Origin: Lentilactobacillus kribbianus
Lineage (GTDB): Bacteria; Bacillota; Bacilli; Lactobacillales; Lactobacillaceae
Assembly: GCF_013184075.1 (NCBI RefSeq)
Contig: NZ_JABEQQ010000001.1
Span: forward strand, 310,001 to 374,000
Length of the DNA: 64,000 bases
Reading direction: 5' to 3'
Shown here piece by piece: positions 8,711-60,094 of the stretch. The notes under the pieces are model-generated. The model was not told where the DNA came from. It did not search any database and saw only the letters and a list, made by a program, of their open reading frames with translations. The translations under genes and the position numbers were made by a program. How positions within the stretch are numbered: the stretch's first letter is position 1; each line of letters begins with the position of its first letter.

Positions 8711-9613
8711 TTAGTCAGCATAATTAGCTGGCGAATCATCCCATTTATCCACAGAATCACCCCATGGACCATCAGGATTGTGCCATTTAAAGTCATCATA
8801 CCAAAGGCCGCGCTTGCTTTTGTCCAAGGCATTTAATTTGGCCACATCATCTGAAGTAATTTCAAAATCAAAAATTTGACTATTTTCAACAATTCGTTGT
8901 TCATGAATGGACTTAGGAATAATAACTAAATCCCGTTGGTATTCCCAGCGTAAAATAATTTGAGCGGCAGTCTTACCATACTTTTCAGCCAAGCTTAGTA
9001 CAGTAGGATCACTCAATGAATCACCACCGCCTAGTGGTGACCAGGCTTCTAATTGAATTCCTTCTAAGTTAGCTTGAGCTAAAATATCTTTTTCTTGGTT
9101 CGTTGGGTTAAATTCCATTTGGTTAACTGCTGGCACTACATCAGTATGTTCTAACAGTTCAGCCAATCGTTCGTTATCAAAATTAGAAATTCCCAATGCT
9201 CGAATTTTACCTTCATGATAAAGTTTTTCCATCGCTTTGTAGGTATCGATAAACTTATCATCAACTGGCCAATGAATTAAGTACAGATCAATATAATGTA
9301 ATCCCAGACGCTTTAATTGACCATCAAAAGCGCGTAACGTACTTTCGTAACCTTGGTTACCGTTAAACAGTTTAGTAGTTACAAATAGATCTTTACGGTT
9401 CATCCCGGTTTCTGCTAATCCTTCTTTGATTCCTTGACCAACCCCAGTTTCATTACCATATTGCTTGGCAGTATCAATTAGCGTATAACCATGCTTAATT
9501 GCTGTTGTCACCGCATTTTTAGCATCCGTATTGCTACTTTTCCAAACTCCCAAACCAAAACGAGGCATCAATATCCCGTTATTTAATTGGACGGTACTCT
9601 TTAAATCGCTCAT
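8711..9613 (-). CDS. Aldo/keto reductase
   Basis: A 300-residue NADPH-dependent reductase with a TIM-barrel fold. The catalytic tetrad is visible: D and Y in LIDTAKQYGNE, K in VTTKLF and H in LIHWPVD. The cofactor-binding end IPKSIHEQRIVEN is present. It resembles the YvgN/2,5-diketogluconate reductase group that reduces aldehydes and methylglyoxal. The start ATG follows AGGAGGAAGATAA. A second member (34350-35189) is about as long but clearly diverged. A TTGACA promoter lies upstream. Confidence 0.88.
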   Translation of the reverse strand: MSDLKSTVQLNNGILMPRFGLGVWKSSNTDAKNAVTTAIKHGYTLIDTAKQYGNETGVGQGIKEGLAETGMNRKDLFVTTKLFNGNQGYESTLRAFDGQLKRLGLHYIDLYLIHWPVDDKFIDTYKAMEKLYHEGKIRALGISNFDNERLAELLEHTDVVPAVNQMEFNPTNQEKDILAQANLEGIQLEAWSPLGGGDSLSDPTVLSLAEKYGKTAAQIILRWEYQRDLVIIPKSIHEQRIVENSQIFDFEITSDDVAKLNALDKSKRGLWYDDFKWHNPDGPWGDSVDKWDDSPANYAD

Positions 9614-9659: not shown

Positions 9660-9688
9660 ATTTTGGTCATCTTTAATCTGATTGTCAA
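9660..9688 (-). promoter_or_regulatory. Promoter of the aldo/keto reductase gene
   Basis: On the minus strand a perfect -35 TTGACA (9683-9688) lies 17 bases from CAAAAT (9660-9665), about 45 bases before the start codon. Confidence 0.6.
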
Positions 9689-9705: not shown

Positions 9706-9887
9706 CAAAAAAAGAGGCGAACCATAAAGGCCCGCCTAACGGCATTTATCAAAGATAAATGGATTACTTAAATTCCACAATTCAGTAATCAGACACCTAC
9801 ATCCGGTAGAAAACGTGTCCCGTTCGAAAAAACACTTAATCGCTTTCGCGAACAACTTTCGTTGCGTGTCTACTCGACTCATCGCAT
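9706..9887 (-). ncRNA. Unassigned structured small RNA with its own terminator
   Basis: About 182 bases of non-coding sequence fold into many local hairpins on the minus strand. An outer pair AGACAC/GTGTCT closes a multi-branched region with CAAC-GAAA-GTTG, TCGC-GAAA-GCGA (both GNRA tetraloops), GTGT...ACAC and CTAC...GTAG hairpins. Then follow GATTACT...AGTAATC and CATTTATC...GATAAATG hairpins and a final AGGCG...CGCCT stem with a long T run (terminator near 9706-9737). An extended -10 element TGGTATTAT (9894-9902) places the 5' end near 9887. It lacks 6S-like end pairing, tmRNA ends and T-box motifs. I cannot name the family. Confidence 0.6.
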
Positions 9888-9923
9888 AAATACATAATAC
9901 CACATCGTTAGAATCAACGCTAG

Positions 9924-10391
9924 TTATTTTTCATCAATAGCTGATTCATTGCCTTCAAAAGCGTCTAATTGTCCTTGCACCCAATCATCCATAGCCGTTA
10001 AATGATCAGTAAGGTGATCAGTAAATTCTTCAGCATTCGTCATTTCGTCAATTCGTAGTCCAGAGGGATTTAATTGTTCCCCCACCGCTACTAGATATAC
10101 ATTCACCCCTGCCGTTTCTTCATCACTCATAAACTTTTCGATTCTAGCAGGTTCACCAAGTGGCAAATTAACTACGTTAGTTTCTACTCGAAAAACTAAA
10201 TCCGTTTTTTTCACTTTCAACTCAGCCACCGCTAATTCTTCCTTAGCTAGATGTTGTTGCACAAATTCATAAAGTGGCAACATAGTTTTAGCAATATTTT
10301 TCTTTAGAGCAGCTAAAGTAACCTCACTTGTCTGACTAGCAATTTGATCATTATTAATAGCATCAATAAGTGCTGCGATATTTTGCTTCAC
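9924..10391 (-). CDS. Uncharacterised cytoplasmic protein (155 aa)
   Basis: I do not recognise this protein. It is acidic, has no membrane segment, and combines a helical N-terminus (residues 1-50), a central strand-rich part (VFRVETNVVNLPLGEP, then VNVYLVAVGEQLNPSG) and an acidic helical C-terminus. It starts with GTG behind a CAGGGG site that overlaps the stop codon of the preceding membrane-protein gene, so translation is probably coupled. The 155-residue length and domain pattern suggest a small conserved lactobacillar protein of unknown role. Confidence 0.6.
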   Translation of the reverse strand: MKQNIAALIDAINNDQIASQTSEVTLAALKKNIAKTMLPLYEFVQQHLAKEELAVAELKVKKTDLVFRVETNVVNLPLGEPARIEKFMSDEETAGVNVYLVAVGEQLNPSGLRIDEMTNAEEFTDHLTDHLTAMDDWVQGQLDAFEGNESAIDEK

Positions 10392-48123: not shown

Positions 48124-48334
48124 AGGACTAGCTGTTAGGTGAGGCTCCTATACAGAAAACGCTACTACTCAGAAACGTCGAAAGACGCCAATGAGTCAGC
48201 AGTTCTCGTCAAACTAAGGCTTGAACTAATGTAGCTGTTATCTTAGATAACTACGCTGTATAGTGCTAAAACTCAACGATTGGCTGCAAGTTTTTTTTAA
48301 AGTACTCAGCCAATTTTATGGCCGAGTACTTTTT
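48124..48334 (+). promoter_or_regulatory. M-box (ykoK) magnesium riboswitch with terminator
   Basis: The stretch contains the M-box core in order: TTAGGTGAGGCTCCTATACA (48135 on), the AGAAACGTCGAAAGACGCCA loop segment, GAGTCA, and the 3' part GTATAGTGCTAAAACTCAACG. M-boxes bind magnesium and end transcription at high levels. The expression platform is visible: a terminator AAAGTACTCAGCC...GGCCGAGTACTTTTT (48299-48334) and an alternative antiterminator in which TTGGCTG (48280-48286) pairs with CAGCCAA (48307-48313). The same TTGGCTG also pairs in the riboswitch base, which gives an off-switch logic. Confidence 0.9.
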
Positions 48335-54983: not shown

Positions 54984-55100
54984 GCGTGGCAACGTCCTAC
55001 CCTCGCAGGGGGCGATCCCCCAACTACTCTTGGCGTGCAGAAGCTTAACTTCTGTGTTCGGCATGGGAACAGGTGTATCCTTCTGGCTATCGCCACCACA
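54984..55100 (-). rRNA. rrf: 5S ribosomal RNA
   Basis: The minus strand reads TGTGGTGGCGATAGCCAGAA at the 5' end and ends in GGACGTTGCCACGC, with the conserved CCGAACACAGAAGTTAAGC loop between. The 117-base length is typical. It is the last gene of the rRNA operon, with no tRNA gene after it. Confidence 0.95.
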
Positions 55101-55179
55101 CTTATGTTACTGAAAGAACTTCGTTCTCTCAAAACTAGCTAATATTAATTTCTGTATCTTTGAACACCATTTTCTACTT

Positions 55180-59909
<4,730 letters not shown>

Positions 59910-60094
59910 TTAAACTGAGCTGTTTGTAAGCTCATTATTTTTTGATTCATTTACTAGCGAATTGACTTCGCAAATGTTTTGGTCTTGATTTAAAATCAAG
60001 ACGCCCAGCACATTTGTTTAATCGAAATTTTGTTCAGTTTTCAAAGGTCTACCTTGTCGATCGGAACTTGTTAGCTCCTTGCGACAACTACTTA

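Follow-up and report, generated by a model that had tools for sequence, protein, structure and literature searches.

The window, by which we mean the whole 64-kb stretch of DNA analysed, carries on its minus strand the gene of a small RNA (sRNA) of about 180 nt, flanked by the genes for a small uncharacterised protein (9924–10391, minus strand; annotated by eye) and an aldo/keto-reductase-like protein (8711–9613, minus strand; named by eye). The ends of the sRNA gene were inferred from the promoter spacing, the terminator and the 5' end conserved in relatives, and the transcript is expected to start at A9887. The parts of the gene, together with the two stretches of the 23S rRNA gene of the window to which parts of the RNA are complementary, are as follows.

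9708–9887, minus strand: sRNA gene of the Ref68/Lacto-3 (asd/MarS) superfamily, matched by RF02840 over 9770–9886
9894–9902, minus strand: extended -10 promoter TGGTATTAT, recognised from the sequence, 6 nt before A9887
9874–9887, minus strand: 5' antisense element AUGCGAUGAGUCGA, complementary to 23S site 1
9830–9871, minus strand: P1, a three-way hairpin domain
9820–9824, minus strand: 5' strand AACGG of the helix closing the multibranch (fold and covariation)
9792–9819, minus strand: P2 (GACAC/GUGUC), with the apical loop region CCGGAU at 9801–9806 (fold and covariation)
9762–9790, minus strand: P3 hairpin (fold and covariation)
9774–9779, minus strand: P3 loop UGUGGA, antisense to 23S site 2
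9743–9761, minus strand: P4 hairpin (fold and covariation)
9738–9742, minus strand: 3' strand CCGUU of the closing helix (fold and covariation)
9706–9737, minus strand: intrinsic terminator, a hairpin (9737–9715) followed by a T run
55600–55605, minus strand: 23S rRNA site 2, UCCACA (E. coli 2473–2478)
55559–55572, minus strand: 23S rRNA site 1, UCGGCUCAUCGCAU (E. coli 2506–2519, peptidyl transferase centre)

The two 23S sites belong to a 16S-23S-5S rRNA operon at 54984–59911 on the minus strand, and ARAGORN found neither tRNA nor tmRNA anywhere in the 64 kb. A 301-base piece of 23S in NZ_AP027888.1, a record of 2750 bases filed under Escherichia coli, is 99.3% identical to that of the window, whereas the best places in the other 5383 E. 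coli records reach 80–90%, so that NZ_AP027888.1 is probably a contaminant or mislabelled. The window also holds an M-box (ykoK leader) magnesium riboswitch at 48124–48291 on the plus strand (145.9 bits, cut-off 44).

The first-pass annotation had described a free-standing RNA of about 180 nt with its own promoter and terminator. The terminator was found again (0.3 such sites expected by chance), and the extended -10 is present, and a similarly spaced -10-like box occurs in many of the relatives' loci compared, but a two-box promoter scan does not call it. The sole promoter-like site of that scan is the separate TTGACA at 9688–9683, which had already been assigned to the next gene (chance expectation, 1.0 such site). 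A separate promoter follows the terminator, and the genes next to the sRNA vary between families, some recurring within a family (16 loci, compared by eye); both speak against a cis-acting leader or riboswitch, and the varied neighbours fit a trans-acting RNA. A streptococcal relative has been mapped as an independent transcript in the available parts of three reports (PMC5613026, PMC2765633, PMC3675131), and the view of a free-standing RNA stands.

The minimum-energy fold of 9706–9890 on the minus strand has an energy of -58.5 kcal/mol compared with a mean of -43.3 for shuffled sequences (z -3.65), and 0 of 200 shuffles were as low, in agreement with the structured minus-strand RNA that had been proposed. 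The fold has six terminal hairpins rather than the at least seven counted originally, and both of the GAAA tetraloops that had been noted lie within P1. The AGACAC/GTGTCT helix that was thought to close the multibranched region is replaced in our model: GACAC at 9866–9870 pairs inside P1 with GUGUU, GUGUC at 9792–9796 pairs in P2 with GACAC at 9815–9819, and the covarying closing helix is AACGG/CCGUU. Eleven of the 14 nt of the 5' element are unpaired in the minimum-energy fold, the last three pairing at the base of P1; the Rfam consensus leaves the 5' strand unpaired. Across the family the order is a 14-nt 5' strand, P1, the closing helix around P2, P3 and P4, and the terminator, where P1 is either a simple hairpin or a three-way domain, the P2 loop contains GGA and the P3 loop reads UGUGGA or UGUGAA. 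The multibranch was obtained by constrained folding in 88 of 99 loci. Covariation analysis, which the first-pass annotation had suggested, was carried out on an alignment of 40 sequences (A3) and found two-sided changes in 21 of the 22 modelled pairs (253 such cells), a result inflated by the fitting of the alignment to the structure. In the same alignment 95.8% of the cells are paired and 0 of 500 shuffles match any of five measures, compared with 25–41.6% paired when the partners are slid by 1–3 columns. The GGA loops were also considered as CsrA sites, a reading that was dropped.

A search with the Rfam models, likewise suggested at the outset, returned a single match above cut-off at the sRNA locus, that to RF02840 (Ref68/Lacto-3), with 79.5 bits against a gathering cut-off of 44 and model positions 1–124 of 124 covered. 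The conserved 5' UGCGAUGAGUCGA and the P2/P3 structure of Ref68/Lacto-3 are both present, so the RNA, listed before as of unknown family, has one. No match to 6S, tmRNA, RNase P, SRP or T-box was obtained at the locus, as the first-pass annotation had held. The Ref68 model stops in P3, omits P4 and the closing helix, both of which the window RNA has, and names no target. RF01732 (asd/MarS) aligns over the whole gene under permissive settings at 28.8 bits, far below its cut-off of 84; the window RNA is not filed as a member of RF01732, although it is homologous.

Among 246 genomes of the order, the Ref68 model matches 119 (57 above cut-off) and the asd model 53 (32 above cut-off), with one copy in each genome, and the two together cover 144. 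In 28 genomes, according to lists compared by eye, both models match one place on the same strand with 5' ends at most 1 nt apart, from which it follows that Rfam has split one RNA into two families. Alignment by MAFFT alone did not succeed for these RNAs, so 11 sequences from a single family (f3) served to build a model (R1) with which the others were then aligned; R1 aligns both the window RNA and the streptococcal MarS loci (87 preselected loci). A further model, R2, was built from 40 sequences at E<0.001 that include the window's and no MarS-type locus. It matches 23 of 398 genomes of the class (E≤0.001, strict filters), one of which (G421) is a staphylococcal copy discussed below, recovers 14 of the 26 listed f4 genomes, and finds relatives in g2, a genus of the window's own family, that both Rfam models missed; with laxer filters and E≤0.01 it matches 21 of 40 chosen genomes, most of which had given no match before. 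Family f1 corresponds to Lactobacillaceae, f4 to Streptococcus and g72 to Staphylococcus, as inferred from Rfam matches, the literature and a search of the genome collection. The R2 matches in G079 and a second match in G225 were dropped since they resemble coding DNA. An apparent minimal form, L223 (G141, f9 g53), for which the R2 E-value is only 0.0018, consists of the 5' antisense element, P1, a UGUGGA hairpin in a long stem and the terminator, and lacks P2 and P4. Five f8 genomes gave no relative at all and eight f9 genomes one likely relative, so that part of the order does without this RNA.

The shared loci and ends and the cross-detection by R1 and R2 point to common descent, and asd/MarS (RF01732) and Ref68/Lacto-3 are the same RNA. 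The asd/MarS RNAs (SR914400, SSRC21, Srn046, srf-17) share the 5' end, P2, the P3 loop and the terminator arrangement with the window RNA, whereas the streptococcal asd/MarS loci folded have a simple hairpin as P1 where the window's group has a three-way domain. It is virtually certain that the sRNA is real and belongs to this superfamily. Searches of the literature by name and motif, which included one enterococcal paper, returned no functional study of Ref68/Lacto-3, while MarS is presented, in the available part of its report (PMC5613026), as a regulator of virulence that acts on mga.

What the first-pass annotation did not contain is a pairing with 23S rRNA. The 5' element AUGCGAUGAGUCGA is complementary without a break to nucleotides 2524–2537 of its own 23S rRNA (UCGGCUCAUCGCAU), with 13 Watson-Crick pairs and one G.U in a run of 14; the E. 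coli numbering used here was obtained by alignment to rrlH of E. coli K-12. A 14-pair run for the motif occurred in 0 of 300 shuffled rRNAs and a 13-pair run in 5, and the predicted duplex energy is -23.1 kcal/mol compared with -12.3 for 16S. However, an energy as low is reached by 1 of 1000 shuffles of the motif and by 3 of 3000 other 14-mers of the window with 6–8 GC, and with such control rates the complementarity at site 1 by itself is only suggestive. These same rates are what can be said for coincidental complementarity, the 5' end being conserved for another reason such as protein binding or the start of transcription.

The 5' element is present in 143 of the 144 loci placed by the Rfam models, a frequency that is partly ascertained because these models reward the 5' motif. 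With 19 R2 loci that match the motif expression added to the Rfam-placed loci, 162 loci bear the element, and positions 2, 3, 5, 6, 8, 10 and 13 are invariant among them. If the 23S sequence is taken as invariant except at 2513, 146 of the 162 can pair at all positions from 2 to 14, and the other 16 have either G at position 11 (12 loci, a G.G mismatch) or U at position 14 (4 loci, a mismatch). Three R2 members outside this set have a mismatch in the element, at position 2 (L212), 3 (L216) or 10 (L213). In L147 (G180), a presumed Streptococcus of asd type at 79.5 bits, just below the cut-off, the core is kept but the 5' end is replaced and the element is gone, which makes this locus a natural test of the role of the 5' element. 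A 5' mini-ORF, AUG-CGA-UGA, was considered and rejected, position 1 being A in 146 of the 162 loci and position 7 altering the stop in 27. According to the available part of PMC9426450, ribosome profiling placed a six-codon ORF, rio56, inside the pneumococcal member of the family (Streptococcus pneumoniae srf-17); rio56 contains AAGGAGGU, and the profiling signal might therefore reflect contact of the ribosome with the RNA rather than translation.

The base of 23S opposite position 7 of the element, 2513, was read by exact pattern in 246 genomes and is A in 68, G in 96 and neither in 82 (gaps or other variants). Among the 97 loci for which this base is known, the combinations of sRNA position 7 and 23S 2513 are U/A in 50, U/G in 30, C/G in 17 and C/A in none (Fisher 7e-7, with the reservation that related genomes are not independent), so a G.U wobble is kept in 30 of the 97. 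C7 occurs in 27 of the 162 loci and faces G in 23 of the 23 cases with a known 23S base; opposite A it is seen in 0 of 50. In family f5, 2513 is A in all pattern-matched genera except g60, where it is G, and both g60 genomes seen (G214, G229) have C in the sRNA, one of the two having been read after the rule was set; the other f5 loci have U. In f1, 2513 is A wherever the pattern matched except in genus g2, where it is G; the g2 sRNAs, found with R2 in a search of nine g2 genomes after the rule had been stated, have C7 in 6 of 6 loci. The duplex is near-perfect, of constant length and always with the same 5' end, as would also be expected of a guide that directs an enzyme to the centre, for modification or for RNase III cleavage or decay of misassembled 23S, and the target region does hold modified nucleotides in many bacteria. 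The data imply no enzyme, however, and to our knowledge the 23S modification enzymes of bacteria are stand-alone proteins, so that we regard a guide as improbable.

Site 2 lies about 30 nt upstream of site 1 in 23S and is complementary to the P3 loop. Position 2474 of 23S is U in the 16 genomes where the loop has A and C in the 12 where it has G, with no exception among the 28 (one of them hand-corrected). UCCACA was proposed opposite UGUGGA loops before the corresponding 23S sequences were read, and in 23 sRNA-bearing genomes U at 2474 was then seen with A in the loop and C with G. For f4 (G020, G113) and for f1 g7 (G142) the 23S base was predicted first and then confirmed, while for f1 g12 (G227) and f1 g3 (G032, four copies) the 23S was read once the loop was known, and both fit. 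The automatic P3 rule took a P2 strand in one of 26 genomes, G060, which was scored by eye as UGUGAA at the homologous hairpin, and the stretches taken of G129, G222, G024 and G231 yielded no 23S. Both states of the 2474/loop pair occur within f1 (g1 and g3 on one side, g2, g7 and g12 on the other), and the match at site 2 is for this reason not simply family history. Two of the 28 genomes (G223, G011) have an AGUGGA loop, in which one pair is lost. Two other readings of the P3 loop were set aside: as a T-loop its register misfits the 7-nt form, and in the case of a mimic of the tRNA-His anticodon loop, which it resembles, the G/A switch is explained by 23S instead.

Phylogenetic support for pairing with rRNA thus comes from covariation at two sites, and the sRNA very probably pairs with 23S at both. 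Coincidental complementarity predicts no compensatory changes, whereas such changes are seen at two separate base pairs and in several lineages, some of them read after the rule had been set, and the same 14-mer recurs behind the staphylococcal 5S, as described below; it is strongly disfavoured and in our judgement very unlikely. A third contact, between GGAU of the P2 loop and AUCC at 23S 2518–2521, is possible from the sequence but is not claimed here, 23S being invariant there in the sequences compared, which leaves no covariation to evaluate. A second 14-pair run, of the terminator tail with 23S, has 8 Watson-Crick pairs and was taken as chance.

A related arrangement was first met in g72 through a weak R2 match. 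In 4 of 4 g72 genomes examined, AUGCGAUGAGCCGA, the perfect complement of 23S 2506–2519, lies behind a 5S-like sequence and directly before a terminator hairpin. We searched a species-genome collection (described as 84,980 species) with the pattern ATGCGATGAGCCGA-W-N1-5-GAGAC, built so as to exclude the 23S gene, which itself matches the motif on the other strand. There are 27 exact matches in 23 stretches, and 25 of them are in Staphylococcus (at least 12 species), with a clean 5S-end motif 11–18 nt upstream in 21 and an altered one in 4; the staphylococcal 5S was recognised by this end motif and by eye rather than with a model. The two matches outside Staphylococcus look like chance. The signature of the arrangement, an opposite-strand pair about 600 bp apart, is found in 6 of 10 further g72 genomes chosen partly for high counts. 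In a class sample of 165 genomes the exact pattern is present in two g72 genomes and absent from several, hence it is not in every species, and the six single matches outside Lactobacillales and g72 showed neither 5S nor a related structure when inspected by eye. In each staphylococcal genome examined, the copy accompanies no more than one or two of the rRNA operons. Tandem copies about 280–360 bp apart occur in L240 (G517), in L310 and L311 of Staphylococcus borealis, in L317 of S. pragensis and in L318 of S. caprae, and each of these keeps the 5S-end-like stretch and the 23S-antisense 14-mer. We read the staphylococcal copy as a cis version of the same antisense device, which, to judge from its position, would be co-transcribed with the rRNA.

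The two 23S sites fall in what we take to be helices H90 and H89, the numbering having been computed. In the mechanism we propose, the 14-nt 5' end would pair with 23S 2506–2519, a strand that includes U2506 of the peptidyl transferase centre and the 5' side of H90, and the P3 loop (6–7 nt) would pair with H89 in its apical part. In the finished 50S subunit this target is buried. According to the available parts of two studies, H89 and H90–93 mature late in the pre-50S particles of E. coli (PMC11260487) and B. subtilis (PMC12560758). A target that is buried and among the last 50S regions to fold suggests that the sRNA acts on nascent or immature 50S. It may keep the strands of H89 and H90 separate, or in register, until the centre is finished by late-acting factors; in H90 the 5' strand is transcribed before the 3' strand, and covering it first could block wrong pairings and set the order of folding. 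The sRNA would then be displaced, perhaps by a DEAD-box helicase. On the whole, we consider it likely that this is a trans-acting, rRNA-pairing sRNA that serves as a base-pairing chaperone for late 50S assembly, the pairing being well supported by covariation and the role being suggested by the nature of the target; if the pairing is granted, assembly rather than another use of it is quite likely.

What is reported of the streptococcal RNAs bears on this proposal in several ways, within the parts of those reports available. The S. pyogenes RNA serves to illustrate high sRNA stability (PMC2765633), and the level of Srn046, the S. agalactiae form, drops in late stationary phase (PMC4448216), both as expected of a growth-linked assembly factor. 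The late-stationary drop does not suit an RNA that, under stress, would base-pair in free or damaged 50S with the peptidyl transferase strand and so block re-use. Although the target does start at U2506 of the catalytic centre, as such a switch would have it, the site is buried in mature 50S, and a role of this kind appears to have little probability. Deletion of marS did not significantly change the growth rate of S. pyogenes in THY according to the portion of PMC5613026 at hand, hence the RNA is not essential there. This counts against the chaperone proposal, as do the reported effects of MarS on mga and other transcripts, the mismatches and retained G.U wobbles in part of the loci, the loss of the element in L147, the pairing of its last three nt with P1, the want of relatives in part of the order and the small number of staphylococcal operons that have a copy.

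Greater weight attaches to an ordinary mRNA-regulating sRNA of the MarS type, for which 23S would be a sponge or a sensor, with pre-rRNA titrating the sRNA off its mRNAs. In gel shifts MarS binds to the 5' UTR of mga, and its deletion lowers expression of the Mga regulon (PMC5613026), and deletion of SSRC21 in another strain changes 142 transcripts (PMC3675131), as far as the accessible text of the two papers goes. On the other hand, in those same texts IntaRNA put mga third, with an FDR of 0.70 (PMC5613026), and no pairing with mga was predicted in the second study (PMC3675131). The best-conserved elements of the sRNA follow 23S, mga would not be conserved as a target throughout the order, and the staphylococcal copies are placed behind 5S. 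The effects on mga and on the 142 transcripts may be direct regulation or indirect, and we hold an mRNA regulator to be the unlikely explanation of the RNA as a whole. The chaperone reading remains preferred, and we lean, with some reserve, towards its widest form, in which a trans-acting RNA assembly factor of Lactobacillales acts at two sites in H89 and H90, the staphylococcal copy is its cis version and the MarS phenotypes are indirect.

In accounts of ribosome assembly in bacteria the work is ascribed to proteins, and helper RNAs that pair with rRNA are known from eukaryotes and archaea. In the openly accessible main texts that were searched, we found no report of pairing between this sRNA and 23S, nor of a bacterial sRNA that aids ribosome folding. 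If the proposal is true, bacteria would have a dedicated RNA assembly factor, the Ref68/Lacto-3 family would be explained and merged with asd/MarS, and the phenotypes ascribed to MarS as a virulence regulator would be indirect results of an altered ribosome supply. The two-site pairing gives predictions at the level of single base pairs that can be tested in harmless lactic acid bacteria. Such a factor would be the counterpart of the chaperone snoRNAs of eukaryotes and archaea (U3, U14 and snR30 type), which likewise are trans-acting RNAs that pair with pre-rRNA at a functional centre, but the present RNA is bacterial and shows no sign of common descent with them. Bacterial rRNA leader and spacer elements that pair transiently with rRNA are a second parallel, and the staphylococcal copy would be a cis element of this sort; in contrast to those elements it is found downstream of 5S, its match is to the peptidyl transferase strand, and in Lactobacillales a free RNA takes its place.
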